This document shows, piece after piece, positions 2,949 to 32,542 of a stretch of 64,000 nt of DNA. A program made the position numbers and the translations under genes. The stretch spans positions 1 to 64,000 of the forward strand of contig JAGBSL010000009.1 of NCBI GenBank assembly GCA_017631875.1. Direction: 5' to 3'. The stretch comes from Bacteroidales bacterium. GTDB lineage: Bacteria > Bacteroidota > Bacteroidia > Bacteroidales > UBA932. The first letter of the stretch is position 1; every line of letters begins with the position of its first letter. The notes beneath the pieces were generated by a model. The model did not search any database, had not been told where the DNA came from, and worked only from the letters and a program-made list of their open reading frames with translations.

Positions 2949-3029
2949 TTTTAATGCAAAGTTGTACTGCCTGGCTGCAATAATATGTCAGTTACTGTTT
3001 TTTGATGAAATTTTTGACATAATCCATCT

Positions 3030-3050
3030 TACTGCCTAAATTTGGCAGTA
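3030..3050. promoter_or_regulatory. Inverted repeat in the parE/WYL divergent promoter region
   Basis: TACTGCC and GGCAGTA form perfect 7-base arms separated by 7 bases (TAAATTT). The site sits 37 bases upstream of the WYL regulator ATG and just upstream of TACCTTCG (3059-3066), a 7/8 match to the -7 box. Position, size and symmetry suit an operator for a dimeric regulator, most simply the WYL protein itself. That link is inference. Confidence 0.5.
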
Positions 3051-11410: not shown

Positions 11411-11545
11411 CAGGTGGCGCACAAACCATTGACCCTCAAATACATACCCCCTCTCCGTGCCGCCAAAAGGGAGCACAGAGGATACAACAAAGGGCTGGTG
11501 GTCAATCAGTTAGGCGACACCGGTATTTATATTGAGAAAATTTTA

Positions 11546-11553
11546 TATTTTTG
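11546..11553 (+). promoter_or_regulatory. -7 box for yicC
   Basis: TATTTTTG matches TAnnTTTG and lies 27 bases upstream of the ATG at 11581. This argues against the in-frame TTG at 11551, which overlaps the box. Confidence 0.55.
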
Positions 11554-11580
11554 CACCGCAAATCTGAAAACCGAAACAAC

Positions 11581-12468
11581 ATGATAAAGTCAATGACAGG
11601 CTACGGCAAGGCCGAGGCCATCCTCGAAACAGGAAAGATCACAGTGGAAGTGCGTTCACTCAACGGCAAGACAGCCGACATCAGTCTTAAGACATCCATG
11701 CTCCCTAAGGACAAGGAAATGGCTGTAAGACAGAAGATTGCAGCTGCGTTGACACGTGGTAACATTGACTTTTTCATCACATTCGAGCCTAATGCTGCTG
11801 ACAGTGCGAAAAAGATCAACATGGCGCTGGCTATGGAGTATTACAGCCAGATCAGCGAACTGGGCGGTCAGATTGGAGCGCACAATCTGTGGAGCCAGAA
11901 CCCTAATGACCTGCTGGCGATGATTCTCCGCATGCCGGAAGTGATGGATGCGAAGAAGCAGGACGTGATCACAGACGATAACTGGCCTGTTGTGGAGGCA
12001 TGCATCGATGAAGCTCTTGCAAACATCAACGCTTTCCGCGCACAGGAGGGAGAGGTCCTTTACAAGGATGTCACTTCAAAGGTGGAGAACATCATGGAGT
12101 ACTCACGTCAGGTCGAGACCTTCGAGCAGGAGCGCGTGGAGGCCATCAGGGAAAAAATTTTGAGCAGATTCGCAGAGCTTAAGGCTGAACCGGACGAGAG
12201 CCGCCTCGAGCAGGAGATGATCTACTACATCGAGAAACTGGACCTCAATGAGGAGAGGGTACGCCTGCGTCAGCACTGCAAGTACTTCATCGATACCATC
12301 ACCAACGAGGACTGCCCTGGCAAGAAGCTGGGATTCATCGCACAGGAGATGGGACGTGAGATCAACACCACAGGATCAAAGGCCAATCATACTGAGATCC
12401 AGAAGATCGTGGTGAAGATGAAGGATGAATTGGAAAAGATTAAGGAGCAGAGTCTTAATATACTATAA
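11581..12468 (+). CDS. yicC: YicC family protein (endoribonuclease-like)
   Basis: A 295-residue cytoplasmic protein starting MIKSMTGYGKAEA, the hallmark N-terminus of YicC. The C-terminus also fits the family: KKLGFIAQEMGREINTTGSKA, the conserved DUF1732 block with its acidic residues. YicC proteins act as RNA endonucleases or adaptors in RNA decay and stress responses. The start is set by the family N-terminus and the -7 box. A very strong stem-loop begins two bases after the stop. Confidence 0.93.
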   Translation: MIKSMTGYGKAEAILETGKITVEVRSLNGKTADISLKTSMLPKDKEMAVRQKIAAALTRGNIDFFITFEPNAADSAKKINMALAMEYYSQISELGGQIGAHNLWSQNPNDLLAMILRMPEVMDAKKQDVITDDNWPVVEACIDEALANINAFRAQEGEVLYKDVTSKVENIMEYSRQVETFEQERVEAIREKILSRFAELKAEPDESRLEQEMIYYIEKLDLNEERVRLRQHCKYFIDTITNEDCPGKKLGFIAQEMGREINTTGSKANHTEIQKIVVKMKDELEKIKEQSLNIL

Positions 12469-12470
12469 TA

Positions 12471-12561
12471 GAAAGTGGCAGTAGCCACCTGAGGTCCTCC
12501 CCACTTCGTGGGTCCCTTCCCTTTTCGGGAGCCAATGCCTCAGGTGGCTACTGCCACTTTC
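12471..12561. terminator. 24-bp perfect stem enclosing two small hairpins
   Basis: Bases 12471-12494 are the exact reverse complement of 12538-12561. The 43-base interior holds CCCAC-TTC-GTGGG (12500-12512) and TCCC-TTTTC-GGGA (12518-12530). RNA from either strand would fold into a three-way junction. It separates the convergent yicC and porin genes, so a two-way terminator is the simple reading, yet the size and branched design are unusual for one and there is no long T-tract. Confidence 0.75.
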
Positions 12562-12568
12562 CATATAA

Positions 12569-13759
12569 TTACAGTACAGGAATGATGTACTGGATTCCGA
12601 GGGAGATGCGCTGGGTGTGCGGTTTTGTTGCACCTAGCGCTTTTGCATTTTCGGTGAGCTCGAAACCTTTGTAGACGTAGTGGGCGAAGACCTTGAAGCC
12701 CTTGTCCTCCTCGAACGGGAACCACTCCAGGCAGGCCTGGGCATTCCAGGCGTTCATCATGCGACCTTTGACGAACGGGCCGTTGTCTTCATAAATGCCT
12801 GCAGTTTCATATGCACCCTTGAGGTAGCCGTTCCATTTCGGATGGAAACGGTAGTCAACATTTCCGATTACTGTCAGATACTGGATGTTCTGAGCCACAG
12901 ATGGACCAGGAGAAAGTGACGAGATACGATGCTGATTATCAAGGCCTGAGCGCTGGTAAAGAACGTCAAGATATGCGAGGATCGGGCCCTTCTCATAGAT
13001 GTTTCCGCACATCAGATAATAGATATTCTTTCCTTTCGCAAGCTGGCCGGCTGAAGCTGAGTACTGCAGATTGATCGCGCCATCGGCGAACCATCCCATC
13101 CAGCATGCTGAAGCAAGAAGCGGGAACTTTGAAGGCTCTACTCCGGCTGGAAGTCCATAGTCCTCGAGTCCTGTCTTCTGGTTTACGACCTGGAAATAAA
13201 GATGCTGGTCAGGAGTCAGATAGGCAGCGGCCTTGACACCGGTCTGGAAAATCGCGAAGTTATTGTTGAACTCACTGAACTCCCTGACGAGCAAGCCGTT
13301 TACATATCCCTCATAACCTGCTACAGCCAGGAACTGCTTACCTACCACGAGGTCAAACTTATCGTTGAAGCGCCACTTTAGGTTTGCATACTCGATTGAT
13401 GAAGGGAGATTCTCGACAGTATTCACATTATTATAGCTGTTGAAGGACTGACGGAAATGGTATGACAGATGGTCATTAAGCCTTCCGTAGATCTCAAGCC
13501 TCACACGATTCATCTTGAATGAAGCCTCATCGAACTGTCCTGCAGTGAAATATGCATTGGCGCTTGAAGCGAATTCCAGGTTGATATGAGACTTGATCTT
13601 CCTTATCTTGTAACCATCATTCATGACTGAATCGCGACGCTCAATGATCCTCTCGACCATTGTCGGAAGCTCATCCTCTGCAATCAGAGTCTTCGGATTA
13701 TGCTGAGCAAATGCATTTAATGCGAAAAATATCGATAATGTGAATAATAATTTCTTCAT
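12569..13759 (-). CDS. Outer-membrane porin (phosphate-selective porin O/P-like)
   Basis: A 396-residue exported barrel protein. The start is the ATG at 13759, giving the signal peptide MKKLLFTLSIFFALNAFAQ; the longer frame adds 18 codons that overlap the promoter. The mature part begins with a short coiled segment (PTMVERIIERRDSVM), then porin O/P-like strands: FKMNRVRLEIYGRLNDHLSY, KFDLVVGKQFLAVAGYEGY and WNGYLKGAYETAG. It ends LGIQYIIPVL. Such porins pass small anions or nutrients. Substrate specificity cannot be read from the sequence. Confidence 0.82.
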   Translation of the reverse strand: MKKLLFTLSIFFALNAFAQHNPKTLIAEDELPTMVERIIERRDSVMNDGYKIRKIKSHINLEFASSANAYFTAGQFDEASFKMNRVRLEIYGRLNDHLSYHFRQSFNSYNNVNTVENLPSSIEYANLKWRFNDKFDLVVGKQFLAVAGYEGYVNGLLVREFSEFNNNFAIFQTGVKAAAYLTPDQHLYFQVVNQKTGLEDYGLPAGVEPSKFPLLASACWMGWFADGAINLQYSASAGQLAKGKNIYYLMCGNIYEKGPILAYLDVLYQRSGLDNQHRISSLSPGPSVAQNIQYLTVIGNVDYRFHPKWNGYLKGAYETAGIYEDNGPFVKGRMMNAWNAQACLEWFPFEEDKGFKVFAHYVYKGFELTENAKALGATKPHTQRISLGIQYIIPVL

Positions 13760-13779
13760 AGGTACGTATAATTTGTGTG

Positions 13780-13787
13780 CAAATATA
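13780..13787 (-). promoter_or_regulatory. -7 box for porin gene
   Basis: Minus-strand TATATTTG, a perfect match, 20 bases upstream of the porin ATG. A minus-strand TTTG occurs at 13811-13814, giving 23 bases between the boxes, slightly longer than usual. Confidence 0.6.
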
Positions 13788-14002
13788 AGATTTTTGAAGT
13801 TTTGCAGAAACAAATATCTTATTTATCAGTATAATATAATTGCAGGCTGGGATTACAGTCTTTGAGTTCTTTGTCATCTGACGTTATTCGCACTTTGATC
13901 ACATCATGATTACAGGTATGAGTATGAATATTATTAATGAGAGACCTTAAACGGTCTACTACCTGGTTTCATGATTTACTAACCCAATAACGCGACAGAC
14001 AA

Positions 14003-14563
14003 ATGGACACAACACCTGTACTTAGGTCTTCGGACCTCGAGCGTATCGACGCTATTGCTTGCAAGGCTATCATCGAGTATTTCAAGGCGAAGGACTTTAC
14101 CTACAGCAGCTATGATGTAGAGGAAGCACTCGCCGGAGTGCACGAGAGATTGGCTAAGAGCTGGGCCAACTATGACCCAGAGAGATCCAAGTCATCTTAC
14201 TTTGTAAGAATGGCGAGGAACTGTGCCTGCGACGTGATAAGGCGTGAGGCCAACTGGAGACTCCATCGTGTCGGCATGCAGATGACGACAACAGATGGTG
14301 AAGTCTACGAGTTGGATTTCGCCGACAGAGAATGCCCGGAAGTATTCCAGGCAGACTACCAGGTCCTCATCAATGAGGAAATGGATGAGGTAGAGAGGGA
14401 GATTGACACCCTCGGCTTCAAGACTGCGCTTGCGCTCAGACTTGATGCCATGGGTTACAGTCGTGACGAGATCATGGAACGCCTTGATTGCAGTTACAAC
14501 TCCGTTTCCGGCCTCTTGTTTCGCGGTCGCAAGCTTCTCAAGCAGAAGCTGCATGCAGCTTAG
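14003..14563 (+). CDS. Sigma-70-like (ECF-type) RNA polymerase factor
   Basis: A 186-residue protein. The region-2-like part includes KSSYFVRMARNCACDVIRRE (residues about 60-79), and the region-4-like helix-turn-helix is YSRDEIMERLDCSYNSVSG followed by LLFRGRKLLKQKL. The arrangement matches small group 4 sigma factors, but similarity is loose and a sigma-like DNA-binding role is also possible. No anti-sigma gene is beside it. A textbook terminator follows. A second, similar gene occurs at 36680. Confidence 0.75.
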   Translation: MDTTPVLRSSDLERIDAIACKAIIEYFKAKDFTYSSYDVEEALAGVHERLAKSWANYDPERSKSSYFVRMARNCACDVIRREANWRLHRVGMQMTTTDGEVYELDFADRECPEVFQADYQVLINEEMDEVEREIDTLGFKTALALRLDAMGYSRDEIMERLDCSYNSVSGLLFRGRKLLKQKLHAA

Positions 14564-14580
14564 TTCTCCCCAGCTTGTAA

Positions 14581-14607
14581 AAGTCCTCTGGTCCAGAGGA
14601 CTTTTTT
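14581..14607 (+). terminator. Intrinsic terminator
   Basis: AAGTCCTCTG and CAGAGGACTT form a 10-bp stem with a GTC loop, followed by a T run to 14607. It starts 17 bases after the sigma-like gene. Confidence 0.9.
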
Positions 14608-14820: not shown

Positions 14821-14854
14821 AAAGGGCGATGCTGAAATTCCAGCATCGCCCTTT
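14821..14854 (-). terminator. Intrinsic terminator of the ADP-ribose cluster
   Basis: AAAGGGCGATGCTG and CAGCATCGCCCTTT form a perfect 14-bp stem with a 6-base loop. On the minus strand a T-rich tail (TTTTGTT) follows. It begins 18 bases after the PARG-like stop codon. Confidence 0.88.
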
Positions 14855-14871: not shown

Positions 14872-15825
14872 TTAGTTAAACATCTTGTAGAACGGAGCGA
14901 ACTTACCCTTCTCTCCATCCTTGTCCAGGATCGCAAAGACCACTTCCTTGAACTTGTTCTTGAACTCAGTCTCTTTAAGGATCTCGTCAAACAAGGCAGC
15001 GACCTTGTCTGCCGGGAGACGGAATGCTCCGCATCCGAATGCTCCTGCAACCAATGAATCATGACCATTGGACAGAGCTATACGGTAGATTGTGCGGATC
15101 TTGTTCTTCATGATCTCATGGCCCTCTGGAGTGAATCCGCCGTCAGTCGCCTTATACTCCAGATTCTTTCCATGCTTCTCGTTGAAGTCAAGAGCAGCTA
15201 CGGAGACGATTCCAACCTTGTATGGCTCCTCGGAAAGCGAATACAGATCTTCACTATTACGGAAGACAGTCACGCCTGGAGAATAGATTCCTCCAAAGTT
15301 CATGTCCATCGGATATGCCTCGAACTTGATCTCTACATTCGCCTCTACAGCATATACATTCTTCGGATACGACTTGGCCTTGTAGAACTGGAAGAGAGAA
15401 CGGCTCAATGTCGAAGCCCTGCAAAGAGCCTCCTCCTGGGCCCTTGATCCACTCTTATACATTCCGCACGCAGTATATGCATCAGCAAGATTCATCACGC
15501 ATGGGTTCAATCCCCTGTCAAGCATTGATTTGGCTGTCTTAAGGCAGTCTTCATTGACAACTCCTTTCACAGTCGGCTCCGAAGACGATGCCAACTCATT
15601 CACATCGAATGCCTCAGAATACACCTTTGTACCTTCAAGCATCGGGTCATCGACAGGCAGTTCCACCTCCTTTCCGGACTCACACACATATCCGCCGGCA
15701 TGGAATATCAGACTATTATTCTTGTATACATCCTGGCGCAAAAGCCGGCCTTTGCGTGGACCCGCCACAAGTCTCTGCTGGGCATATTCACGATCCCATG
15801 AAGGGAATTTCTTAGATTCACCCAT
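14872..15825 (-). CDS. TIGR02452/DUF2263 family protein (microbial PARG-like ADP-ribose glycohydrolase)
   Basis: A 317-residue protein of the macrodomain-related microbial PARG group. MNLADAYTACG (111-121) and SGSRAQEEALCRASTLS (125-141) match the PARG signature, with Glu131-Glu132 as the catalytic pair. The late segments DSLVAGAFGCGAFRLPADKVAALF and VVFAILDKDGEKG are also typical. The glycine-rich loop that usually reads PGGG is TACGMY here, so activity may be altered. The family removes ADP-ribose from proteins or nucleic acids, or hydrolyses related compounds. It is the last gene of a minus-strand group after ART, NADAR and PfkB genes, and ends at a strong terminator. Confidence 0.85.
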   Translation of the reverse strand: MGESKKFPSWDREYAQQRLVAGPRKGRLLRQDVYKNNSLIFHAGGYVCESGKEVELPVDDPMLEGTKVYSEAFDVNELASSSEPTVKGVVNEDCLKTAKSMLDRGLNPCVMNLADAYTACGMYKSGSRAQEEALCRASTLSRSLFQFYKAKSYPKNVYAVEANVEIKFEAYPMDMNFGGIYSPGVTVFRNSEDLYSLSEEPYKVGIVSVAALDFNEKHGKNLEYKATDGGFTPEGHEIMKNKIRTIYRIALSNGHDSLVAGAFGCGAFRLPADKVAALFDEILKETEFKNKFKEVVFAILDKDGEKGKFAPFYKMFN

Positions 15826-15931
15826 AATCTTCCTATGTTTAAAATGGCACTTCTAATATACAAATTCGATTTAATAATATAGTATTTACTGCGGGTAAAA
15901 CACACCGGATGCTCTCCTTTTGAGAAGATCG

Positions 15932-16579
15932 TCAATCAAGGACCGGACGTCTGGAACCTTCGACATATTGCGCTTTTGCGTCAAGGTCCACCTCTTCAAT
16001 CTGGACTACCTTCACTTTTGACGGATCAAGGACAGCGATGTTCTTTTCGCAGTTCGGATACTTGGCCCAGCCGCCTTGAGGCCATTCAATGAACAGCACT
16101 CCGACTGAAAGAAGAAATTCAGAAGCCTTCACTTCGGCAGCCAAGGTCGTCTTCTTATCGATTTGCGACTCTTTCACCAACTTCTCCTTCGCCACACCTG
16201 AAAGTCTATGAGCGATGTATTTGCGCAAATATTTTCCAACAGACACCCCTGTGCCCTCAGCATCCCTTCCCGACCCTTTGATCAAATCAGGCAGACTCTC
16301 CCCCAGTTTCGCCTCAACTCGCTCTATGATACCAGCAGGAATCGGAACGCCATAATAAGGCAGACAATTATCTTCCGTCTTCTCCGGCACCTCTACTGTA
16401 TACACATAATGATGATCTGCAGTCCCCTTCCTTGGCTCGGAATAATGTGCAGCTGTATCAAAAGCCTCTGTCAGGTAAACACCCACTCCGAACTTGCAAC
16501 CGCTGCCTTCACCCAATGAATCCAAGTTAAACTTATCAAATATGACCGGTGAACCATGATAATATGTACCCATATGCAA
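15932..16579 (-). CDS. ADP-ribosyltransferase-like protein (PARP/polyvalent-ART type)
   Basis: A 215-residue protein. The N-terminus YYHGSPVIFDKFNLDSLG followed by FGVGVYLTEAFDTAAHYS is the two-part NAD-binding signature of H-Y-E type ADP-ribosyltransferases; His8 and Tyr35 are the likely first two catalytic positions. The C-terminal NIAVLDPSKVKVVQIEEV (from residue 180) aligns with the last strand of polyvalent ARTs, often written as xxVVFDPxxI; the third catalytic residue is not certain. Such enzymes move ADP-ribose from NAD+ to protein, RNA or DNA. The start lies 2 bases after the NADAR stop, so the two are translationally linked, as in toxin-antitoxin pairs. An alternative start is two codons inward. 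Confidence 0.72.
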   Translation of the reverse strand: MHMGTYYHGSPVIFDKFNLDSLGEGSGCKFGVGVYLTEAFDTAAHYSEPRKGTADHHYVYTVEVPEKTEDNCLPYYGVPIPAGIIERVEAKLGESLPDLIKGSGRDAEGTGVSVGKYLRKYIAHRLSGVAKEKLVKESQIDKKTTLAAEVKASEFLLSVGVLFIEWPQGGWAKYPNCEKNIAVLDPSKVKVVQIEEVDLDAKAQYVEGSRRPVLD

Positions 16580-16581
16580 AA

Positions 16582-17190
16582 CTATTTTTTTAATTCCTTT
16601 ATTATTCTAATGAACTCAAAGGCATCATCCGGAAGCTTATACTCCAATTTACCATCACCGTCGCGAAGTTCCATCAGCAGACGGCCCATAAGGTTAGGGC
16701 CGACCCACTTGTCTCCTACAAGGTTAGCATTCCACGCATCAGCGCGTCTTCCAGCCTTGGGCTGTTTCTCCACAATGTATTTCCCACGACTGCGTTCCAG
16801 CTCCTTACGGAACGCCTCACACTGCTCATACTTCTGTACAATACAGAACTTCATCGCGTCTATAAGCATGCAGCCCCAGTCTTCCCTACGAAACTCCGGC
16901 TCATAACTCTTAGCCGTCATCTTTGTACTTGATGACTTTGCGCCACGAGCAGTCTCTCCGTTCCAGACTTTCTTCACGATTTCAGGATCCTTGAACTTCA
17001 TCATCTGGTAAAGATGTTCGGTCGACTTGAACTCGACACCATCGACCACAATCTTTGCCGTGGTCATATTTCCCAATATCCCCCACTCCTCTTTCGACTT
17101 GGAAAAAACCGCACACTGATCAGCCGGGTATTCGGAAATACCCCAATACTCATTATAATTGTCATGAATATACTGCGCTATACTTGGCAT
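16582..17190 (-). CDS. NADAR family protein (ADP-ribose-linked hydrolase)
   Basis: A 202-residue cytoplasmic protein of the NADAR/YbiA family. Diagnostic parts are AVFSKSKEEWGILGNM, VEFKSTEHLYQMMKF (Glu58 a likely active-site residue), ETARGAKSSSTK, and the late RADAWNANLVGDKWVGPNLMG. NADAR proteins cleave N-glycosidic bonds of ADP-ribose-like compounds, and some act as antitoxins that remove ADP-ribose from guanine in DNA opposite DarT1-type toxins. Here it stands directly before an ART-like gene with a 2-base gap. The natural reading is that it reverses or limits the ART reaction. Confidence 0.88.
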   Translation of the reverse strand: MPSIAQYIHDNYNEYWGISEYPADQCAVFSKSKEEWGILGNMTTAKIVVDGVEFKSTEHLYQMMKFKDPEIVKKVWNGETARGAKSSSTKMTAKSYEPEFRREDWGCMLIDAMKFCIVQKYEQCEAFRKELERSRGKYIVEKQPKAGRRADAWNANLVGDKWVGPNLMGRLLMELRDGDGKLEYKLPDDAFEFIRIIKELKK

Positions 17191-17326
17191 AACTACTTAT
17201 TTTTAAATGTTTACGATATTACCACCTTACTTCCTGCAACATCAATCATCACCTTGAACGACTTATAGCTAATTTCGTTTTCTGTTAACATATACGGAAA
17301 AAACCATGATTTCATTATGCAGAATA

Positions 17327-18247
17327 TCAACGAATCATTCCTTTGCTGCCCATATATGAGACACTCTTCGAGGCGGTCTCCTGTGCTTTTTCGAGAGCGG
17401 TGCGGACCACATCCTCAGTCATATCGCTCAGACGGAGGCAATCGGCCTCGACCAGAGCATTGAGGAAGGCCGAAGTCGTCCAATCGCCGGCACCCTCCCA
17501 GTCAACCACATTGTCATTTGCTACTGGAGGAAGCTTCACCCAACCTGCACCTTTCAGGTTGAAGCGGAGACCTTCAGAACCGAGGGTCTGGATGAATAGC
17601 TTATCCTTTCTTCCCTCTGCAAATGAAACGTCCGGCATATTCTGATCAGAGAACTTGACCACATCGCTGACCTCCACGCTATCGAAATCCTTCTTCTCCT
17701 TCATGGACGAAGGCTCGAAATACACCAACGAACCCTTTTCACGCAGAGCTTTCGCCATGAGCCTATGCCCCGCCGCAGGATCATCGAAGAAGAACACATC
17801 CGGCACAAAGTCAAGTGCAGCAAGGAAGGCCGGAGCCTCATCCCTCATACGCAGGAAATGTCTCCTAGGGAACCTCGAGCCTCCCGGCGAGCCCGAGCGG
17901 ACGCTGACCTTCGGCGAGCAGTCCGGCTCCAGCTTGTGGGTCACCTTCAGGAGAGTCGTTCCGCCACCTTCCACGTTGGACACGAACCTCATGTTGCAGC
18001 CATAGTCCTTCATGGACTCAGCCATCCTGTAGCCCTCTTCCGTCGTATCAAGGACGACTTGAGGATATGCGTCCCAGCCAAAATGAGACAGCATGCACAT
18101 GACGTTTCCACACGTTCCTCCGACCTCTTCAGCAACTGTCTTCTCGATGAATTTCCTATTCTCCGGTCCCTGTGGATACTCTCTGACAACGATAGTGTCA
18201 AGATTGAATATACCTGATCCTAATATCTTCTTCATATTCTCGCTCAT
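17327..18247 (-). CDS. PfkB/ribokinase family sugar or nucleoside kinase
   Basis: A 306-residue kinase. The N-terminal GSGIFNLDTIVVREYP and EEVGGTCGNVMCMLSHFGW fit the PfkB substrate-binding part. The C-terminal DWEGAGDWTTSAFLNALVEA is a variant of the DTxGAGD motif with the catalytic Asp in GAGD; Trp replaces the usual Ala after it. The middle SGSPGGSRFPRRHFLRMRD insert is unusual. It would phosphorylate a ribose-like or nucleoside substrate with ATP. Being upstream of NADAR, ART and PARG-like genes, it may recycle ribose products of ADP-ribose breakdown (inference). A 136-base gap separates it from NADAR. Confidence 0.85.
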   Translation of the reverse strand: MSENMKKILGSGIFNLDTIVVREYPQGPENRKFIEKTVAEEVGGTCGNVMCMLSHFGWDAYPQVVLDTTEEGYRMAESMKDYGCNMRFVSNVEGGGTTLLKVTHKLEPDCSPKVSVRSGSPGGSRFPRRHFLRMRDEAPAFLAALDFVPDVFFFDDPAAGHRLMAKALREKGSLVYFEPSSMKEKKDFDSVEVSDVVKFSDQNMPDVSFAEGRKDKLFIQTLGSEGLRFNLKGAGWVKLPPVANDNVVDWEGAGDWTTSAFLNALVEADCLRLSDMTEDVVRTALEKAQETASKSVSYMGSKGMIR

Positions 18248-18272
18248 TACAGATTCATAAAGTTATTAAAAA

Positions 18273-18348
18273 ATCCTGCAGACTACTGCAGGATCAGGAT
18301 ATTTTTACGGTTGAATGCCGTAATCGGGTCATGATTATCTTATCATGA
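18273..18348. promoter_or_regulatory. Two palindromes in a divergent intergenic region
   Basis: ATCCTGCAG-ACTA-CTGCAGGAT (18273-18294) and TCATGAT-TATCTT-ATCATGA (18329-18348) are perfect inverted repeats between the divergent pfkB gene and the 131-residue unknown. They may be operators or leader hairpins. No regulator gene is beside them. Confidence 0.4.
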
Positions 18349-18424: not shown

Positions 18425-18820
18425 ATGATTCCAGAAAACGAAATAGACAGATATAGAGTAATATCTCACACGAGATATCTTTTCAAATTAGGATATAGCA
18501 AGGAATATCTTGTGGACAATGTACGCTACAACTATGGAGAAAACTGTCTGTTCCTACCGGACGCGCTCGAAGAGTACGACAGGTTGGTGGTAGAGCAGAG
18601 AAGAAAGGAGATACTGGTGGAGATCACCGCCGCCACCGCGCAGGGTATAATCGACGAGATGGTTGCCAATGGCACAGTGGAACTGCCGGAGAGCTATACG
18701 GTCAAAGGCACTGACACCGGAAGAGTGATCTTCGGGTCCCGCTCCCCCAAATGTACCATAAACACCCCTCTGAACTACTTTAGAGTAAAACTCTTGAGAA
18801 GATTTCCCAAACAGATATAA
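18425..18820 (+). CDS. Hypothetical protein, 131 residues
   Basis: Not recognised. It starts MIPENEIDRYRVISHTRYLF and is rich in charged and aromatic residues. The middle (EEYDRLVVEQRRKEILVEIT) is probably helical. The C-terminal third (VIFGSRSPKCTINTPLNYF) has a strand-like pattern. There is no signal peptide or membrane segment. It is the first gene of a plus-strand group leading, through a tiny ORF, into the AAA_13 ATPase, so it may be an accessory of that ATPase. Confidence 0.6.
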   Translation: MIPENEIDRYRVISHTRYLFKLGYSKEYLVDNVRYNYGENCLFLPDALEEYDRLVVEQRRKEILVEITAATAQGIIDEMVANGTVELPESYTVKGTDTGRVIFGSRSPKCTINTPLNYFRVKLLRRFPKQI

Positions 18821-18823
18821 TAA

Positions 18824-18988
18824 ATGAACAGAACTCCGAATCTTACAATGTTGAAGCCGGTAACCGAGTATGCTGAAATGGTTGCCAGACAGATTGATGT
18901 GAAGGCATATATGAGCAAGGGCAATGGTATGTACATGAGATTGACGGTATCATGTCATAATTGTAAAAATATATTCATAACTTTATAG
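18824..18988 (+). CDS. Possible 54-residue protein
   Basis: A short frame starting ATG three bases after the 18820 stop: MNRTPNLTMLKPVTEYAEM, then RLTVSCHNCKNIFITL. It has a CHNC pair. Its tight placement between the 131-residue protein and the ATPase (21 bases before the latter) suggests that it is translated, but there is no homology to support it. Confidence 0.4.
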   Translation: MNRTPNLTMLKPVTEYAEMVARQIDVKAYMSKGNGMYMRLTVSCHNCKNIFITL

Positions 18989-19009
18989 TCTTATAAAGGA
19001 AACGAGCAT

Positions 19010-21289
19010 ATGATAAGTTCGATATTAATGAAGGACGTGGCTTCTTACAAAGGCGAGGGCGTAACGTTCGAAGGGATGGATAAGGTCAACCTTATCTTCG
19101 GAAGCAATGGCACAGGAAAAACAACGATTTCCACATTCATGAAGGAGTATAGCGGTTATCTGGAAACAGGAGCTGCCGTGGATGGTCGCTTCGCACAATG
19201 CGGAGTTACGTGGGCAGACGATAGCAGGCAGAAGATACTCGTATACAACAGACAGTTCAAGAAGGAGAATATCGGACAAGGCAACATACCAGGCGTATTC
19301 ATAATGGGTAAAGACGCAGTGGACAATGCGCAGGAAATAGAAAATCTCGAGAAAAAACTGGCGGACAAAACAACAGCAGCCGAAAATCTCAGAACACAGG
19401 CCAGCACCCTGCGCTCAAGCGTTCTGCCAGGAGGCGGCATATATAAGGCATACTTTGAAAAGGCTGGAGACAAAATTTATAATGAAGCGACAAGTCATTA
19501 TGATGACACCTTCAAAAATATAAAGAAAGATTACGTCAAGCGACTGGAAAGAATCATCGATGCTTATAATAGATTGACGACAGTTGAAGTTCTGTCTGAA
19601 GAAAAACTGAAAGAACACATCAGTATCGCAAACCAGGCAACTGCCAACCCTATACCGGAACTGAAAGTGGTAGACATATCGCCGCTCATAGAAATCGAGA
19701 AGGACACCATATGGTCAAAGGCGGTAGTCGGCAGCGGAGATATTGACTTTGCCGGATTCATAAACGACCTCAACCTGAGCGACTGGGTAAAGAAAGGCAT
19801 GGAGAAGCTCCCGCAGACGGGCGACGTATGCCCATTCTGCCAACAGCACACGATCACAAGCAGTATCATCGAAAAGCTCAACAGTTACTTTGATGAAAGC
19901 TATGAGAAGGACATTGAGACAATCAGACGTTTGACAACAACATACGAGCGTAAAGCCATTGCAATCATTGAAACAATAAGGACATTGGAGCAATGCGAAT
20001 ACGTTGACTCGCAAGAGCTCGACAAGATGACTGATAACCTTGAGAACCTTATCAGAAGAAACCTGACGCAGATGCGCCAGAAGATAGACTTCCCTAGCTG
20101 CAAGGTAGACATGGAGGATTGCACTCCGGTTCTCAAAGACATCAACGGGGCAATCAGCATGGCAAATACAAAGATAGTTTCCAGAAACAGCCTGATAGTC
20201 CAAAAGCGTAAGATCAAGAGAGCCCTGCCTCAACGGGTGTTGGAATTTTTCGTCAAGAAATACGAAGCCGATATAGAGGCATATGTTAAAGAAAAAGAGA
20301 CCGCTCTCATAAAAGCACAAGCCCTGGACAGCGAACTAGAAAAGACTAACACAGAAATTAACCACATCGATCAAAAGATATCCGACCTCCGCGCGCAGTC
20401 ATCAGACTCAACGGCCGTCGTCGAACGCATCAATAAGGTTCTCTTAAAGCACAACTACAAGAGCTTCCACCTTGAAAACTTTGACGATTCATCATACCGC
20501 ATAGTCCGCAAAAACGGCGAAGACGCCTCCGAAACCTTGAGCGAGGGCGAAGAGACGCTTATCACATTCTTATACTTCCTGCAGCTCCTTGAAGGAAGCA
20601 CCGTGCGCGGCAAAGACTCCGGCGAACTGATCGCAGTCATCGACGACCCGATATCCAGCCTTGACAACAACATCCTTACGTTCATCGCAAGAGAAATCAA
20701 AGACCTAATATTCAGGGTCGGATACGACGATAGCAAGCTCCGACAGCTGATAATCCTGACCCACAACATCAATTTCCACAAGTCTCTGGCGAAGGGACCT
20801 GTATATGGCAGTAATACCAAAAGTCCGCAGAAGGCATACTATATCCTCGAGAAGTCTCTAGGAACAGAGTGCACCATCGTCAGAAAATCAGCAAACTCAG
20901 GTGAAGTTGAAAGCGAGTACAACGAAATGTGGAACCTGCTGAAGAGGGCGTATAGCAAACTCAATAGCGATAATACAGAAGAAGAGAACAGGGACTATAA
21001 ATATACGATCCAGAACACCATGCGACGTATCTATGAAACCTTCTTCTCCAACACCTGCGGGATGCGTGACCAGGAAATAGCCAATCTCTTCGAGCACAAA
21101 AGTAACCTATATAAATCGGCCGACTGCCGCAACCTTATCGAATGGCTCAACGAAGGTTCCCACAGCGTCTCCCTGAGCGGCTACAACGACCTCCCAAGCG
21201 ATGAGGTCATCAAAGAATACCTTGCCATCTTCGAGGAAATGTTCCGCGTTACGGGAAACATCGGTCAGTTCAAAAAGCTGATGGGATAG
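19010..21289 (+). CDS. AAA_13 family ATPase with zinc-hook motif (RloC/PrrC-like)
   Basis: A 759-residue SMC/ABC-type ATPase. Walker A is GSNGTGKTT at 31-39. Long coiled-coil arms flank CPFCQQH at 274-280, a CxxC zinc-hook as in RloC and Rad50. The ABC signature is TLSEGEETL, Walker B is LIAVIDDPISSLD, followed by the H-loop LIILTHN. Near the C-terminus MRRIYETFF and LNEGSHSV give an Arg-xxx-Glu plus a later His, the order of the anticodon-nuclease triad of PrrC/RloC. These residues are also common in other AAA_13 proteins, so tRNA cleavage is a hypothesis. The family is strongly linked to phage defence. It is followed by a two-way terminator. Confidence 0.82.
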   Translation: MISSILMKDVASYKGEGVTFEGMDKVNLIFGSNGTGKTTISTFMKEYSGYLETGAAVDGRFAQCGVTWADDSRQKILVYNRQFKKENIGQGNIPGVFIMGKDAVDNAQEIENLEKKLADKTTAAENLRTQASTLRSSVLPGGGIYKAYFEKAGDKIYNEATSHYDDTFKNIKKDYVKRLERIIDAYNRLTTVEVLSEEKLKEHISIANQATANPIPELKVVDISPLIEIEKDTIWSKAVVGSGDIDFAGFINDLNLSDWVKKGMEKLPQTGDVCPFCQQHTITSSIIEKLNSYFDESYEKDIETIRRLTTTYERKAIAIIETIRTLEQCEYVDSQELDKMTDNLENLIRRNLTQMRQKIDFPSCKVDMEDCTPVLKDINGAISMANTKIVSRNSLIVQKRKIKRALPQRVLEFFVKKYEADIEAYVKEKETALIKAQALDSELEKTNTEINHIDQKISDLRAQSSDSTAVVERINKVLLKHNYKSFHLENFDDSSYRIVRKNGEDASETLSEGEETLITFLYFLQLLEGSTVRGKDSGELIAVIDDPISSLDNNILTFIAREIKDLIFRVGYDDSKLRQLIILTHNINFHKSLAKGPVYGSNTKSPQKAYYILEKSLGTECTIVRKSANSGEVESEYNEMWNLLKRAYSKLNSDNTEEENRDYKYTIQNTMRRIYETFFSNTCGMRDQEIANLFEHKSNLYKSADCRNLIEWLNEGSHSVSLSGYNDLPSDEVIKEYLAIFEEMFRVTGNIGQFKKLMG

Positions 21290-21328
21290 CTCCACTATGC
21301 GGACGCTGACATACAATACTCTTTACAG

Positions 21329-21364
21329 AATAATAGCGAACTCAAGTTTGAGCTCGCTATTATT
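21329..21364. terminator. Bidirectional terminator hairpin
   Basis: AATAATAGCGA and TCGCTATTATT are perfect 11-base arms, and CTCAA/TTGAG extends the stem inward. It lies between the convergent ATPase and HIRAN genes and has A/T-rich flanks on both sides. Confidence 0.82.
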
Positions 21365-21366
21365 TA

Positions 21367-22521
21367 TTAGTTTTCTGGTTTATCAGTTTGATTAGACACT
21401 CCTGACCTATGGGCTTGCCAGTATATTTCCTTCATCTGAGGAATAGCTTGAGTATGAGGCATGCGTCCTGTCCAGCCATTGACCACCGTACCATCAGCGT
21501 TGAATCCGATAAAGTCACAAGCCTCATTATAGGCATCCACAGCATTATCATTACATTCTTGACTAGATGACCAATAACGATACAAGTCCGCACCAAGGCC
21601 ATACTTATTCTTCTTGCCATCTACTGATTTCAACACAAAATCTCCGAATCCAGGATATAGGCTATCAAGCTCCTGCGCAATAATTATAGCACCGCATTCG
21701 CAAGTTGGCTCCTCAAGATAACTGTCATGAGGATGCAACTGTTGACGAGGATCATGATCAAAAAGGGCATGCATGCACTCATGAATGAAGGTCTCGCAGA
21801 TCGTGAAGCAACGCCTGTCGGCATCCCCCTTTGAGTAGTAATCAATTCTATTGAGGTACACGCAGATGAGAGGATATTCGTCATCCTTTTTCATTGGAGT
21901 AAAGTACTCTCCGATAAAGTCATCTGGATTATTGCCATCAATTTCAACTTCTATCGGTTCCCTATCCCCTACCGGAACGTATGAATACTGACGTTCGATA
22001 TCCTTCAGTTCCCATATGGTGGTAAAAGCGACATCAGTCTTCCTCTGCGCCAACAGCGATCCAAGAGTCGGCATCTTGAGTGCACCTTTCTTATTAAGAG
22101 CACCGAACGCCCTGAAAACACTGCTCAGATCAAGATTCTTCACATCATCGATCATCTTCGCCTCCCTCTCAGTCAACGAATAACGACTAGCGCCATCCAA
22201 ACGGAGAGACACGGTTATCTCAAGGGCCTCCTCCTTACTATGAGTCTTTCGATTAATCGAAGCGACCGTAGCATGGAAGATCTCTGTCAAGCCACGATCA
22301 AACAACCTGTCATACTTCAGGTTACATGCCATAGGCACATAACCGAGCTTATAGCCTTTGTAATATACTGCCAAAGCCTTCTTATCGCGAGCATTATCCG
22401 GTTCCCTCTTGAAACAGACCTCTGCACCTAGAGGAATTTCATCTATGACGCGATCAAAATCACACGAATACGTTGCTCCAGCAACATAGAACTTATCGAA
22501 AAAGATGTATTTTACGTTCAT
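21367..22521 (-). CDS. HIRAN-domain protein with putative zinc metallopeptidase domain
   Basis: A 384-residue protein with two recognisable parts. Residues of about 8-110 are a HIRAN domain (YVAGATYSC, VCFKREPDNARDKKALAVYY, GYKLGYVP), a module that binds DNA ends or stalled forks in helicases and defence-linked proteins. Residues of about 210-350 hold FIHECMHALFDHDP (HExxH at 247-251) and LEEPTCECGAIIIAQE (Glu270/Glu271 a possible third ligand), a zincin-like metallopeptidase layout. No membrane segments or signal peptide. It sits convergent to the AAA_13 ATPase and upstream of Druantia on the same strand as druE. DNA-damage-triggered or phage-triggered proteolysis is a possible role, but only the domains are supported. 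Confidence 0.75.
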   Translation of the reverse strand: MNVKYIFFDKFYVAGATYSCDFDRVIDEIPLGAEVCFKREPDNARDKKALAVYYKGYKLGYVPMACNLKYDRLFDRGLTEIFHATVASINRKTHSKEEALEITVSLRLDGASRYSLTEREAKMIDDVKNLDLSSVFRAFGALNKKGALKMPTLGSLLAQRKTDVAFTTIWELKDIERQYSYVPVGDREPIEVEIDGNNPDDFIGEYFTPMKKDDEYPLICVYLNRIDYYSKGDADRRCFTICETFIHECMHALFDHDPRQQLHPHDSYLEEPTCECGAIIIAQELDSLYPGFGDFVLKSVDGKKNKYGLGADLYRYWSSSQECNDNAVDAYNEACDFIGFNADGTVVNGWTGRMPHTQAIPQMKEIYWQAHRSGVSNQTDKPEN

Positions 22522-22571
22522 ATTTGAATGAAATTCAAGAATTTACATCAAAAACACGCGCACCATTCTCA

Positions 22572-23021
22572 TCAAGCACAAGCAGGGGTATATGTGAACT
22601 CGTATGAATCTTCAACCATTTCACACTCAATCCCGTAAACTTCTTCGAGGTACTCGGCATATTCCGCAGTATCCATTTGAGCGATTCTCTCGTCTTCCTG
22701 GCTCATCCACTCATCAAAATCACCATCAAAACCGCTCTCATCGAACATTTCATGCAACTTTGTGAAGTCTGCTTCATAGCATCCACGATAATTCTTTATC
22801 CCGTCAATGATCAAGAGATCGTGTGCCCTGCTGTAGGCCTCATAATCAATTTCCTCATAGACCTCCGGAAGGCCTTCCTCCAACTGCTCATTGGTAACTT
22901 CCTTGCCATTTGCAAAGGCCTCCAACTGCTCAGCCATCGAATCTTCCAATTCGATTTCGAGCTGCTCTTTTTTGTCTAAGTAGGTTAGGTAGGTGGTTAG
23001 GGTTATTTTTATTGTTTTCAT
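22572..23021 (-). CDS. Very acidic hypothetical protein
   Basis: A 149-residue protein with about 41 Asp/Glu against about 10 Lys/Arg. It starts MKTIKITLTTYLTYLDKKEQ and has helical acidic stretches (EQLEEGLPEVYEEIDYEAY, MDTAEYAEYLEEVYGIE). Function not recognised. The segment PEVYEEIDYEAYSRA loosely resembles PEIYEKLEQAHRDAA in the acidic protein at 43733. Its place downstream of druE would allow a role as a regulator or nucleic-acid mimic, but this is only a guess. Confidence 0.6.
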   Translation of the reverse strand: MKTIKITLTTYLTYLDKKEQLEIELEDSMAEQLEAFANGKEVTNEQLEEGLPEVYEEIDYEAYSRAHDLLIIDGIKNYRGCYEADFTKLHEMFDESGFDGDFDEWMSQEDERIAQMDTAEYAEYLEEVYGIECEMVEDSYEFTYTPACA

Positions 23022-23094
23022 GTGGTTTTCGGGTTAATGTCATTTGAAATGAAAATCAAAAAGATGGTCGGAACTTTTGTCAAGTAATGATTCA

Positions 23095-26000
23095 TTATCT
23101 TAATTCCACATCATATTTGATGCGCTGATTCAACGAAATATCTATTTGTGAGGAGACATCGGTATCTTTAGGGTGATTATCCGATGACCATCCATTCGTT
23201 ATTCCTCCATCTGGATACAGAACTAATGTGGTGGTGCCATTTGATATTTCCATAGACCTCCAATGAGGCAGAGAGCCTCTCATTCTTACATCCATATCTA
23301 CAACCGTACCTACATTAAGGAAGAATCCCTGCAGATACATATCCCTATCATTTGAATACTTGAAGTTTTGAGTGAATGACCAGTCGTCGTACTTAGGATT
23401 AAAGCAATATGGGGTTCGATCCACATACCTTTCTCCCACATATTTTACAAATACATTCTTAGGTCGGTTAACCTTTGCGATAAAAGCCCTGATGAATTTT
23501 GCAAACAACAGAATTCCCAAATGTGATTTCAGATGCTCATCCGTATAAGTGAAAGTCAATACTGAATCACTACTATTATCAATAAACCTCTGAATCATAG
23601 ACGAATTATGAGTTCGCAACTCTTCCGTGATCAGTGAATCCAAGAGATCATCTGATGAGATTTGCAGCCCTGCATCCAAATATATCATCTCTACTCCACC
23701 AGTCATATTATCTATATCCAAACGTGTTTTACTGCCAAGACTATTCTGGTCAAATTCAATCGAATAGACAATATAACCCCAATCAGAGTTCATGCTGTTC
23801 CACTTCTTATTATCAGAGAAATACAGCCTTCCTCCTGCATAGGCTATTGGACAGAATCCAAATTGAGAGAAGTTATTCACGTAAGTACGGTCTATGCCGC
23901 CATCAAGATTCTTAAGCATGTTCATGACTGCCGGTGTAACCAGCTGTGGCAACTGACCGACAACATGAATCTCATTCCGCCTATCAGGTTTAAGTCCAAG
24001 AGTAATCCAGCCACTTTCGCTTATTATGTGCATACCCTGTGCATCATATACAGCAACCTTATCATAGTAATCATACTGATTAACCTCAGAGTTAAAGAAC
24101 AATATAGCCGATGGATCAGCTTCTATCGCGTGAATAATATCAGCACGAGTTTCCTTTACCACGGTTGGGTATGCATTCTGTATGTGGGCAGGAACTTCAT
24201 CCTCGATAAGCTCTTTTGCCCACTCGAGCCAATTCTTGAACAATTCGATATCAATCTGATCATAGTACCTTATGGTATTCCTGTCAAGAATCTGATGAGG
24301 TTCAGTTACAGTCCTCATCTTGTTAAAAATTTCCTGTTTTATAAGCTTCTTTATCTTAGCCGCATTAAGTTGAGTGGAAATTCCAGCACCGCCTTTTGCA
24401 GTATCAAATACGCACAATGTACCTTTCTTAGAGATGAAGAAGTCGATTTCTGAGCGGTCACGTTGCACCTCATCTGCAAAGATATCGCACAACACGATGG
24501 CGAAAGTCGTCACTATTTTTATATCATCGACATTTCTTGGGTCAATATCTTCGATCTTGATATCTTCCTTCTTAAACAACTGGATTTCAGAAAAGTTTGT
24601 CTGGAGCTTTCCTGCAAAGATAACCCCATGTTTAATATCAGAAGCCATGCAGTCACATTTACCATCATTGGTAACATTATCAGGATCTCTTCTGAGCGGT
24701 TTATGAGCACATTCCCAAATAGTCCAGCCATTAGGGTCAAGTGTACTATGACCAAGTTTATATCCCTCTTCTTCAACCACTGCCCTTCCACATTTAGCGC
24801 ACACAGAATATCCTTGACCAAGACCAGAATTATAATAAAGGATATATGGAGTATTATCCCAACTGTCACTTGTCCTTAATTTGAGAGGACTTTCTCCAAG
24901 ATGAGATGCCACACATGGTGTAAAAGGAACAGCCGCATCCTGCATTTCAAGGAATTGCGCAGAAACCTGAGAGAACACATTAGAACTTGTATCACGTGAA
25001 ACACCATACTCCGCCCTGAAGGCATCAGGATATATAACGACCTGTCCATCGGCTAATGGAGATATCTTAAGATACCCGTCCTCCATCTTATAATAGTCGA
25101 ACGGCTTGCTCCAATCTACTCCTCCTACTCTATATACAGAGTTATTGATCGTAACCACTCGTCCTGGTGCGAATTGCGCCAAAGCACGGACAAGATCAGC
25201 TGATGGTTGCTTGTTCTTACCCTTGCGATAGCCGGATTTTGCATCCTGCCTGCTTACAATCAGCTCAATGATATCAAGAGGCATGTTAGCGTTTGGAGTG
25301 AACTGATGGGTAGACATAAACTCCAGAAGATTGGTCTTCAACAGATTAGTCCACTTGAAATGCAGACCTCTAAGCAATTTGCTGAAACACTTGTTCGATT
25401 TCTGTTGCCATGTAAATGTAAAGGAGTCCACCGTAGTTATAAGATCTTGCTGAGATATTCCCGCATTTGCAGCCTCGTTATTGAAATACGTAGCAAGATT
25501 TTTAACAATAGACTGAAATTCCTCCTCCATCTGTTTGGCAGCTTCGATAGTCTTAAGAACAAGGGCATGAATATCGCCAATAGTCAAGGTTCTTCCAACA
25601 ACCTCGCCGATATTATTCAATTCCTTAACGATATCGCGATTGACCATGTTCGGTGCATGCATATAGTCTTCAAGAGTCTGAATAAATTCAGCGAATGCAG
25701 AACGGTAGACATCTGCTCCAGATGCCAGGCATATAAGATTGCCATGGCTATCCTGAATACAATCATACCTTGTCTTTGGTGAACCGGCACCGATAGGATT
25801 TTGTTTCGCAAACTTGTAATCTGTAAAGAAATCCATCAAGTTCGTGCCTGTCTCTCCCAAAGCAATATGGTTGAACACAGACTTAAACACATACGCATTG
25901 ACCTGTCTCTGAAGAATCACCTGGCTGGCAAAATCAACATACGGAGCACCTATCGCCTTGTTTATCAATGTCAAAGGATGCTCGCACACATTACGACTAT

Positions 26001-29000
26001 GTACATCCTGTCCACAAAGGGCAATCGAGGCACTCCTGTTCTGACTCATACGTCCACTTCGTCCGGCCCTCTGCTTATAATTCGCAGCTTTAGGCGGTAC
26101 GTTGTTCATGACCACAAGCTCAAGGCTACCTACGTCAACTCCCATTTCCATGGTTGTCGAACATGCCAGGATATTGATTACATGTTTATCCTTGAAATCC
26201 ACAAGGTAATCCCTTGCCTCCTGAAGATCAAGCTGAGCGGTATGCTCTTTCTGCACGAATATCATCGGCAAGCTATAATACTTATGCAACCTTCTATCCC
26301 AAAGGTGATGTATCGCCGCTCTATGCTGTGCATGCCATGACTCAATTGCAGCATATGATTTTCCAATTGCTAATGGAAGGTTAGGCATCGCATGCTTTTG
26401 TCCTGCACGCTGATAGCCTACTCCCTTAGTATAGTACGGACTCAACCCTTTGAAGCATACATCAAGAGGTCTGCGTGTTTCAGGACACACATATGCAGAA
26501 TCATATAGTTTGAAAGCTATATCATAAAGGTTCAAATAATATCCCTTTGCATCAAAGTCGACCCATCTTTGGTTCGTGTAGCCTCCACCACGAGCAGAGT
26601 CAACCTCTATACGGCCTCCTCCATAAACAAGCAGAGGGTCATTACCCGTTGTCAGGACGTTCCACATTTCATCTATTACCTCTTGCGGATTAAGTTGCGG
26701 ACACGCTTTTTCAACGATCTTGTAAATTCTGTGATCTTTAGTTGGTTTGGTTCTCGGTCTTCTCTTCTCTTTTGAATACTTAAATCTGCCGAGATCAAAT
26801 ATGTCTATGAAAGAGTCTACTTCTCTAGCATTGGGATCATCAATCTTGATGAAGAATGAACCGTTATTTCTGACATCAAAGTCTAGATACACTTTAAGCA
26901 GGTCTCGCCATTCAGCATCAGTAATTTCGGAGCTGAACTTAGCTGGTACACTTATACCTTCCAGTTTAGGATAATATGTTCTGAACAATCCAAGGGTTTC
27001 AGGAGCGTTCGCTTTCTTAGGACGGTTGCTCAATGCGTAGTACATGATAGAATGAGCATATCTTCTTGACTTCCAACTGTCTGCTGTAACAGAATGGTTG
27101 AATATGCGCTTTATGTCAGCATCGCCTGACAGGGCCTGTTTTGATGTATCATAGATGCCATAGAGAAGGTCAAAATCTACAGCATGTTCACTCATCAACA
27201 TGTCAGCAATATCTCTCCATGTCAAATAATCGTGACCACTTTGGATCTTATTGATCAGGGTTTGCAGTTTCATCGCCTCAGCTAATGCACCATTAGTGGT
27301 TGAAGCCTTTGAAAGAAGATTTTGAAATTCTGCATTATATTCTGCAAGTCTACTTGGATCCAACTTCAAAAGTGCATCTAAAATTCGGCTGTAGACCCAT
27401 TCCCTTTCAACCTCAACATTCTGCGAGAGAGTTGCCTTTGAACAACCTTGTCTACTGTCAACAAAAGAAATGTACTGCTGACCCTTGTGCGGTTTATCGT
27501 CGCCATTCTCAATCATTTGCTCCAGCAATGACGGAGCTATGATGCGTCCTATGAATGCAGTAGGACACGTAAGCAGTTTGAGGAACTCTCTTGACGTTTC
27601 CTCAGAATTTCCATCTTCATAGTTTTTGACATTAGACTTGTTGTTGTCCTTTCCGCAACATGGACATACGTGACCCTTAGAGAACAGAAAATCGCCACTT
27701 GCGTCCTCAACCAGTTTACCTCCTGATATTTCAGCAAGAGAAGCCGCATGTGACGGTGGCATTGCAGTACGATCCAGCAACGAGATCAATCTCTCACTAG
27801 AAATCTCCTCTGCTTTATGAACAGCCCCACCATCTCTATTAATTGTTTCATCACCATCCTCATCAACATCAAAGACATCCTTCACCTCACTCTTCGTTTC
27901 AAACGGAATCAGTTTGCCATTATCACCTACCTCGGAAGCAATCACCAAGTGTCCACACTCGCTACATACGTACATAGGGAATACACCGGCGCAATCTGCA
28001 AGTCTACACTGCGCCCCTTTATCCAATGCAGGGAAGAAGAAATGGGACTTGGCTTTCATAGTCTTGGTTTCATCTGTCAGAGAGTCCAAAATGCCAAGCT
28101 TTGCTTCCAGGTCAGACCCACTTGCAATCAAAGAATTAATTGTCATGTAATTGTCCGACCCTGTACCATACAATCTATCCTCAGTTGCCCGAACCTCAGC
28201 TTGCGAGATGCTGATGCCGGAATAGTTGCTTATCCTTGTCAGAGACCTCTTTCCTTCGATAACTTCTATATCAGCTACAGTCTGTCCACTGATATCAGCT
28301 ATGAATTTCTTGAGATCAGCCTGTCCATTGGCACCAGATATTGTCGCCGATGATGTGACGAATCTCACTTCATCTGGCCTTACACCAAAAGCATGCATAA
28401 CCCTGCGCAGCAGATATGCAAGTTCTGCTGCTGCAGCACCTGTAAAAGTATGCGTCTCATCGATAACGATCCACTTGAGAGTGCCTTGGGACCTTTGGAA
28501 AATAGCATCATCCTTCTGTCGCAACAGCATATACTCCAGCATGGATGGATTAGTAATCAATATGCTCGAACCTCTACCCCTTATATCTTCACGAGTGATT
28601 CTTTCATGCAGAATTTCCGGCGCGTGCGTTCCTACCCACTTTCTCGCATCTTTAGCAGTATTTTCAGCAGTGCTCTTTGCAACATTATATGCCGCCAGAT
28701 ACCCCTCATCGCTGTTATCCTCAGGAGTATTACCGTTATAAACGGCAAAAGAGATCTCTTTACCATGATCCGCCAGATTATATAGGAACTTGTCAATTCT
28801 TTCCTTCTGGTCATTCATCAGGGCATTCAACGGATAGAGGAACAGGGCCTCAACCGGATGCCAATCACCAACAGATCGACCGACTGCAGTGTCCGACAGA
28901 TACTTGACTACTGGAACAAGGAAACACTCCGTCTTACCTGATCCCGTACCAGTTGTAACAACGATTGATTTCTTTTCAGTCAACAATTTGCTCCATGCTC

Positions 29001-29268: not shown

Positions 29269-29269
29269 A

Positions 29270-32425: not shown

Positions 32426-32445
32426 ATCTCAAATGTGATAACTTT

Positions 32446-32476: not shown

Positions 32477-32542
32477 GCTAAAAGGGGAAGCTAAGGTATT
32501 ACAATGGCTAATTTTTTATTTTCGCATACCAAATTAAAATCA

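Follow-up and report, generated by a model that had tools for sequence, protein, structure and literature searches.

What would bring a kinase, a transferase and two hydrolases together in a single row of genes is the question raised by four open reading frames on the minus strand of a 64,000-nucleotide stretch of a Bacteroidales genome (contig JAGBSL010000009.1, positions 1 to 64,000; hereafter the window). At window positions 14872-18247, a PfkB-family kinase, a NADAR protein, an ADP-ribosyltransferase (ART)-like protein and a bacterial PARG follow one another. The original prediction of four consecutive minus-strand genes was confirmed, with PfkB, NADAR and PARG named clearly by Pfam and NCBIfam searches. 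Altogether, the locus is probably a conflict module built on ART-NADAR, with accessory genes that process ADP-ribose, and it looks like an elaborated, apparently new form of the known ART-NADAR toxin-antitoxin or anti-phage module, equipped with interchangeable erasers and sugar-handling enzymes. The ART-NADAR core is the best-supported part of this reading; the accessory layer is weaker.

Genes that travel with the ART

Scanning one genome per species yielded 168 pattern matches, 77 of them loci encoding an ART relative, nearly all from Bacteroidota by record title and many from animal-gut assemblies, the remainder coming from Kiritimatiellae (L044, L051) and Verrucomicrobia (L065). Profiles built from the loci place NADAR at at least 68 of the 77, PfkB at at least 29 and PARG at at least 15, all lower bounds because many contigs are short; as the loci were selected by the ART, the NADAR co-occurrence counts cover ART-bearing loci only. 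When the genes are required to form a chain, a stricter count over 78 loci (with L078 from a viral contig added) finds NADAR in 68, PfkB in 26, PARG in 14, a phosphosugar-isomerase-like protein of double-SIS fold (SIS) in 13 and an ADP-ribosylglycohydrolase (ARH) in 8, the last two being further accessory families that recur at ART loci. Ten chains are without NADAR: in eight the ART is cut short or at a contig end (L047, L068-L070, L072, L074, L075, L077; L068 has NADAR 3 kb from the ART, outside the chain), in L076 the ART is unscored, and L050 is the one clear exception to the pairing.

ART-NADAR is the commonest chain (25 loci, with the two-gene form reversed to NADAR-ART in 3), followed by ART alone (7, of the cut-short or contig-end kind), ART-PfkB-NADAR (5) and ART-NADAR-PfkB (5). 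All four genes stand in one chain at 8 of the 78 loci (L002, L014, L033, L035 with a weak NADAR match of 45 bits, L036, L044, L062 and L065), in five relative orders, none of which matches that of the window; at L027 and L028 all four lie within 12.5 kb. For PARG, the background amounts to 37 matched stretches, spread over 28 genomes out of 50 (50 of the 66 listed loci among the 77, including all 15 with PARG near the ART), and simple arithmetic leads to an expectation of about 0.2 neighbours by chance over 77 stretches of 12 kb each, where 15 were observed. On a tree of 68 ART sequences, no fewer than 13 changes are needed to explain the 15 PARG states and 14 to explain the 26 PfkB states, so that both associations look repeated, with 25 of the 65 inner branches open and the change counts standing without a shuffled control. 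The repeated co-occurrence on which the original prediction had staked itself is thus found across loci, and more often than chance would give.

As a side observation, SbcC-like genes beside the module or AddB/AddA-like genes near it, named by eye, occur in some loci (L018, L033, L036, L073 and L014, L058, L062), with one PDDEXK_1 match.

A core pair with exchangeable companions

The nearest relative, L001, runs colinear with the window: its segment 9226-6165 matches window 11534-14605 at 82% identity, and the identity is 75% for ART-NADAR and 86% for window 37318-40010. At this matching site L001 carries NADAR-ART only, without PARG, PfkB and the window interval 17.2-37.3 kb (about 20 kb), and its draft genome gave no PfkB match at 1e-30 (5 of 8 candidates scored) and no PARG match at 1e-8. 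On the strength of this site, ART-NADAR is regarded as the core and the rest as accessory, PfkB and PARG coming and going around it. The idea of the four-gene row as a unit is therefore not supported, since the order shuffles among loci and two of its members are absent from L001.

Exchange is also visible among other alleles. L033 and L062 are 90% identical over PARG-NADAR-PfkB and on into the opening ~47 nt of the ART, after which identity falls to ~48%; L033 and L018 are 97.7% identical over ART and SIS, 73.5% in PfkB and 89.7% in the outer flank, and L018 has ARH-PfkB-NADAR where L033 has PARG-NADAR-PfkB. Judged from these alignments, the ART and the erasers are exchanged separately, with ARH occupying PARG's place at the L033/L018 site; ARH and PARG are both present in L014 and L054. 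L001 offers a natural minimal allele, and L033, L062 and L018 offer swapped alleles for comparison.

The interval missing from L001 encodes an AAA_13/PDC-S06 protein, a HIRAN protein, a Druantia III-like DruE and a weakly matching DruH, and several defence systems are present in the window. The defence island at window 18425-36220, missing at the L001 site, also holds a 131-aa protein without an assigned family.

The ART-fold protein and the putative erasers

The ART-like protein matches Pfam models below their thresholds: DUF3990 (20.1 bits, gathering threshold 32.2, E 5.5e-4), ART-PolyVal (19.4 bits, threshold 31.2, E 1.8e-3) and PARP (E 0.033). Across alignment A1, for which 35 proteins were picked among the best 120 of 285 matches to the ART query, these models are matched at E<=0.01 by 34, 32 and 26 of 36 members, respectively. 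The predicted structure has the split beta-sheet of the ART fold, the VIA-align and Foldseek comparisons leaving other families possible, and the ART fold set as a test for the 215-residue protein is accordingly present in the model; both motifs first read from the sequence, YHGS and GVYLTE, were found as well. A PDB sequence search with this protein returned nothing relevant.

His6 is kept in 36 of 36 A1 members and Tyr33 in 35 of 36, and the third catalytic position, N178, assigned by eye from strand order, is Asn in 34 and Asp in 2. E163, which is Glu in 20 of the 36, was considered as the catalytic Glu and rejected because strand order places N178 there. Beyond cellular genomes, the ART gave two loci in viral contigs (L078, L079), a single record with a 41-residue match among 50,697 phage records, and none among plasmid records.

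NADAR belongs to PF08719 (63.3 bits, threshold 35.1, E 4.2e-17), and Glu174 in its LLMELR motif is invariant in alignment A3 (20/20). A catalytic Glu at that position is described as the YbiA type (PMC11125620), the DarT1-linked NADARs using an Asp close to the last strand; judged by this residue, the window NADAR is apparently of YbiA type. PARG is recognised by PARG_cat_microb (E 2.3e-24), PF10021 (86.9 bits, cut-off 23.5) and TIGR02452 (132 bits, cut-off 50), and its catalytic QEE motif is kept in all 10 aligned rows. At the GGG-like loop of most rows the window PARG has ACGM, a change shared with L014 and L035; these three form a sub-group with ACGM or ACGK for the GGG loop and QEE retained, whose substrate may differ.

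The PfkB kinase and its sister clade

The kinase belongs to PF00294 (47.1 bits, threshold 25.8, E 2.7e-12), keeps the N-terminal GG motif and has a GAGD motif whose Asp255 is invariant in alignment A2. It scores 16.2 bits against the ribokinase equivalog TIGR02152 (cut-off 299.65) and 29.2 bits against the ribose-1-phosphate kinase model NF053626 (cut-off 330). Ribose salvage was therefore rejected as its role, the kinase being far below the ribokinase models and a member of a rare clade; the proposed salvage of the ribose product finds no specific support, the more so as a sister clade lies near CARF6 proteins. In each of 12 module genomes searched a single PfkB stands out (E 1e-85 or better), and the next paralogue scores 2e-11 or worse. 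At E<=1e-30, a limit that takes in the sister clade, PfkB was matched in none of the 393 genomes of one order and in 10/173, 3/348, 13/347 and 9/349 genomes of four families.

At E<=1e-80, the samples of 173, 348, 347 and 349 genomes contain 20 PfkB places, of which 17 lie near ART and/or NADAR, a test that is partly circular because 11 of the 20 are profile rows and possession of the module guided the choice of centre genomes. Sixteen of the 17 have ART or NADAR within 1.5-kb flanks (among them L107, where only NADAR is seen and the contig ends, and L115, with a weak NADAR but with the pair in its longer locus L027), L099 is counted through the longer locus L002, and neither gene was seen near L100, L106 and L118. 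Six of the nine non-profile places have ART and/or NADAR, one of them (L098) in a centre genome. Speaking against a strict PfkB-ART link, the PfkB query matches 1429 proteins at E<=0.001 and the ART query 285. No PfkB was found in viral contigs, nor in phage records at 1e-10.

A second set of 15 PfkB places (1e-80 < E <= 1e-30), which omits the partial gene L109, found next to NADAR, and L114, itself part of L108, and in which the partial L113 and L123 may not belong, has no ART or NADAR nearby. A CARF6-like protein lies near 7 of these 15, the other 8 being viewed with flanks of at most 1.5 kb; the CARF6 name comes from PADLOC for L090 and three plasmid records and from our own profile for the remaining loci. 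CARF domains sense nucleotides. Plasmid records of Agrobacterium, Paraburkholderia and Sulfitobacter have a P-loop NTPase, CARF6 and PfkB in a row (3 of 8 matching records checked by profile, the NTPase motif by eye), and a Shinella plasmid record shows the same layout as judged from gene lengths. This trio may represent an undescribed conflict system. Because its relatives accompany either ART-NADAR or CARF6 and the P-loop NTPase, the PfkB branch looks, by gene context, more closely connected with conflict systems than with sugar catabolism.

Several further observations concern these kinases. The PfkB-CARF6 loci comprise L087, L089-L093, L111 and L112, together with L130, L132 and L133 (Bacteroidota and Alpha-/Betaproteobacteria plasmids); in the plasmid rows the NTPase, CARF6 and PfkB measure ~630, ~360 and ~350 aa, respectively, and in L132 a NADAR gene on the opposite strand overlaps the PfkB end. 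Many PfkB relatives are ~400 aa, ~100 residues longer, as are those of L002 and L015. At L127:1347-3047 a module-clade PfkB directly adjoins a gene that by eye is SIR2-like, another NAD-using enzyme. In-frame stops counted in several of the sister PfkBs raised a concern that was set aside for most, one stop-free reading frame spanning the match (L085, L087, L088, L119, L121, L122), so that the counted stop is probably the gene end; the sister PfkB of L113 is in two pieces.

Proposed mechanism and alternative explanations

The catalytic activities, target, trigger and kinase and SIS substrates are proposed as follows. The ART-fold protein would consume NAD+ in modifying a molecule of the cell or of a phage, with a guanine base in DNA or RNA as the likeliest target, since characterised NADARs de-modify guanine; the adjacent YbiA-type NADAR would hydrolyse the N-glycosidic ADP-ribose bond and thereby act as antitoxin; and an ART that escapes its NADAR, as might happen when a phage infects, would stop growth or phage replication. 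With less support, PARG, or ARH instead, may strip O-linked ADP-ribose that is out of NADAR's reach, and PfkB, with SIS where present, may act on an ADP-ribose-derived sugar or nucleotide. The toxin-antitoxin or anti-phage role suggested at the outset fits the core pair, with its precedents in DarTG1, YarT-YbiA and the NADAR of DS-32, as well as the defence-island setting, and is weakened by the ART itself, which in the window seems to have an H-Y-N triad without the canonical catalytic Glu.

A more far-reaching and less likely version has the H-Y-N ART and NADAR setting a mark while the PfkB clade, with SIS, PARG or ARH, processes ADP-ribose into or out of a signal, and the sister clade serves the second system of P-loop NTPase, CARF6 and PfkB found in Bacteroidota and on Alpha- and Betaproteobacteria plasmids. 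If true, phosphorylation of an ADP-ribose-derived molecule would constitute a new step in bacterial immunity.

It is rather unlikely that the ART instead makes a diffusible ADP-ribose derivative, or hydrolyses NAD+ to one, and that NADAR, PARG or ARH, PfkB and SIS work on this signal or toxin one after another or tune it, in the manner of other NAD-based immunity. The PfkB kinase and the double-SIS phosphosugar-enzyme fold do resemble metabolite enzymes, PfkB relatives lie near CARF6 proteins, one PfkB adjoins the SIR2-like gene of L127, another is fused to a nucleoside deoxyribosyltransferase-like domain (L065), and H-Y-N deviates from H-Y-E; nevertheless, the commonest form is ART-NADAR alone (25 and, reversed, 3 of 78), which resembles a toxin-antitoxin pair rather than a pathway, and in the 6-kb flanks no family beyond NADAR, PfkB and PARG recurs as often. 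Doubtful, too, is an immunity cassette in which NADAR, PARG and ARH mainly shield the cell from competitors' ADP-ribosylating toxins and the ART is a weak or inert partner. Such a role would suit the gathering of erasers for differing bond types in one place, the protection of E. coli from RhsP2 by bacterial PARGs (PMC11833690) and an ART apparently devoid of the canonical Glu, but the conservation of His6 and Tyr33 exceeds what is expected of an inert gene.

Housekeeping control of NAD+/ADP-ribose or riboflavin-intermediate damage, outside any conflict, appears highly improbable: YbiA acts on riboflavin intermediates, NADAR weakly matches TIGR02464 (49.6 bits, cut-off 73.7), and PfkB and SIS are metabolic folds, yet PfkB is patchy across genomes, the cassettes swap and the setting is a defence island. 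That the genes are chance neighbours in a hotspot of the kind that collects unrelated genes, as a window with several defence systems could suggest, can practically be dismissed given their near-abutting arrangement and a co-occurrence that is repeated in many orders and far above the PARG chance estimate.

If an ART-NADAR conflict module with accessory genes is the right reading, the gathering of NADAR, PARG and ARH in one place is explained, and the module raises the question of what PfkB phosphorylates and why its sister clade keeps company with CARF6 proteins.

Gene arrangement in the window

The features are collected in Table 1. The PfkB-NADAR gap is 136 nt, the NADAR-ART gap 8 nt with the ATG start, and the ART-PARG gap 106 nt. 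The predicted NADAR-ART spacing of 2 bases holds for the TTG start and not for the ATG start, which is set beside it because the resulting length of 213 aa is that of many close ART homologues. Terminator-like sites number 3 in the region and 3.2 in shuffles, a count not above the shuffled level. Elsewhere, five TTTG-N17-22-TANNTTTG sites, the pattern of the Bacteroidota-type promoter consensus, occur against 0.8 expected (window 3013-3044, 32446-32476, 59580-59609, 61481-61512 and 61554-61582), and none adjoins the four genes.

Table 1. Features of the ART-NADAR locus and its borders (window coordinates).
Feature	Position	Strand	Basis
PfkB-family kinase, accessory gene, 306 aa	17327..18247	-	Pfam, alignment A2, residue check
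NADAR, apparently YbiA type, putative ADP-ribosylhydrolase/antitoxin, core gene, 202 aa	16582..17190	-	Pfam, NCBIfam, alignment A3
ART-fold protein, putative toxin/writer, core gene, 213 aa (ATG start)	15932..16573	-	Alignment, model, residues
Alternative TTG start of the ART-like reading frame	15932..16579	-	Gives 215 aa
Bacterial PARG (TIGR02452), accessory gene, 317 aa	14872..15825	-	Pfam/NCBIfam, alignment
Terminator-like hairpin with T run directly before PfkB, possibly the upstream border	18272..18295	-	Hairpin scan
Strong hairpin following PARG, probably a terminator, taken as downstream border	14821..14854	-	-25.9 kcal/mol, z -7.2

Comparison with known systems

Kinase and sugar-phosphate enzymes are also paired in fructoselysine catabolism, where FrlD (PfkB) and FrlB (double SIS) form a kinase/deglycase pair; the resemblance to PfkB and SIS is an analogy of fold and gene pairing only, at 8-16% identity, and no SIS gene was seen in the gene set of the window. 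The accessory set beside ART-NADAR was not found in the open-access literature searched and may be described elsewhere; the available portion of PMC9503650 makes no mention of PfkB or ribokinase, and in that of PMC7824862 ribokinase appears as a reference.

PARG and NADAR are reported to reverse different ADP-ribose bonds on RNA, PARG removing O-linked ADP-ribose (PMC11833690), and the window PARG is of this same family. In the RhsP2 case described there, PARG and toxin come from separate species, and the window PARG differs further in its ACGM loop.

DS-32, whose named anti-phage proteins are covered by NCBIfam NF053875 and NF053876, has a similar NADAR: one from a Klebsiella DS-32 system fits profile A3 with E 1e-25. 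Its partner, as seen in plasmid records, is phosphoribosyltransferase-like rather than an ART or PfkB; it has no similarity to the ART or PfkB profiles, and NF053875 matches neither the ART nor the PfkB of the window. DS-32 was rejected as parent system, given the different partner gene and a window NADAR that reaches 100 bits against NF053876, below the cut-off of 240. We infer that DS-32 stems from the DefensePredictor paper (PMC13092281), the name being missing in the main text as far as available.

Closer are two toxin-antitoxin precedents. DarTG1 (DarT1-NADAR), in which NADAR reverses guanine ADP-ribosylation, likewise pairs adjacent ART and NADAR genes within one operon (PMC11543638). 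It differs in that the window ART matches DUF3990 and ART-PolyVal weakly and has H-Y-N, that the window NADAR looks YbiA-type (Glu) rather than DarT1-linked (Asp), a comparison by description and not by alignment, and that additional PfkB, PARG, ARH and SIS genes surround modules of the window type. YarT-YbiA of myxobacteria, for which toxicity and rescue were shown in E. coli, joins a YbiA-type NADAR to a small adjoining ART (YarT, of the HYD1 group) (PMC11125620), a likeness that rests on NADAR type and gene pairing and not on an ART-to-YarT sequence comparison. The available description of YarT-YbiA names no accessory genes, unlike the set in the window; if the proposed reading is right, ART-NADAR pairs of this kind widen into multi-enzyme cassettes with interchangeable erasers.

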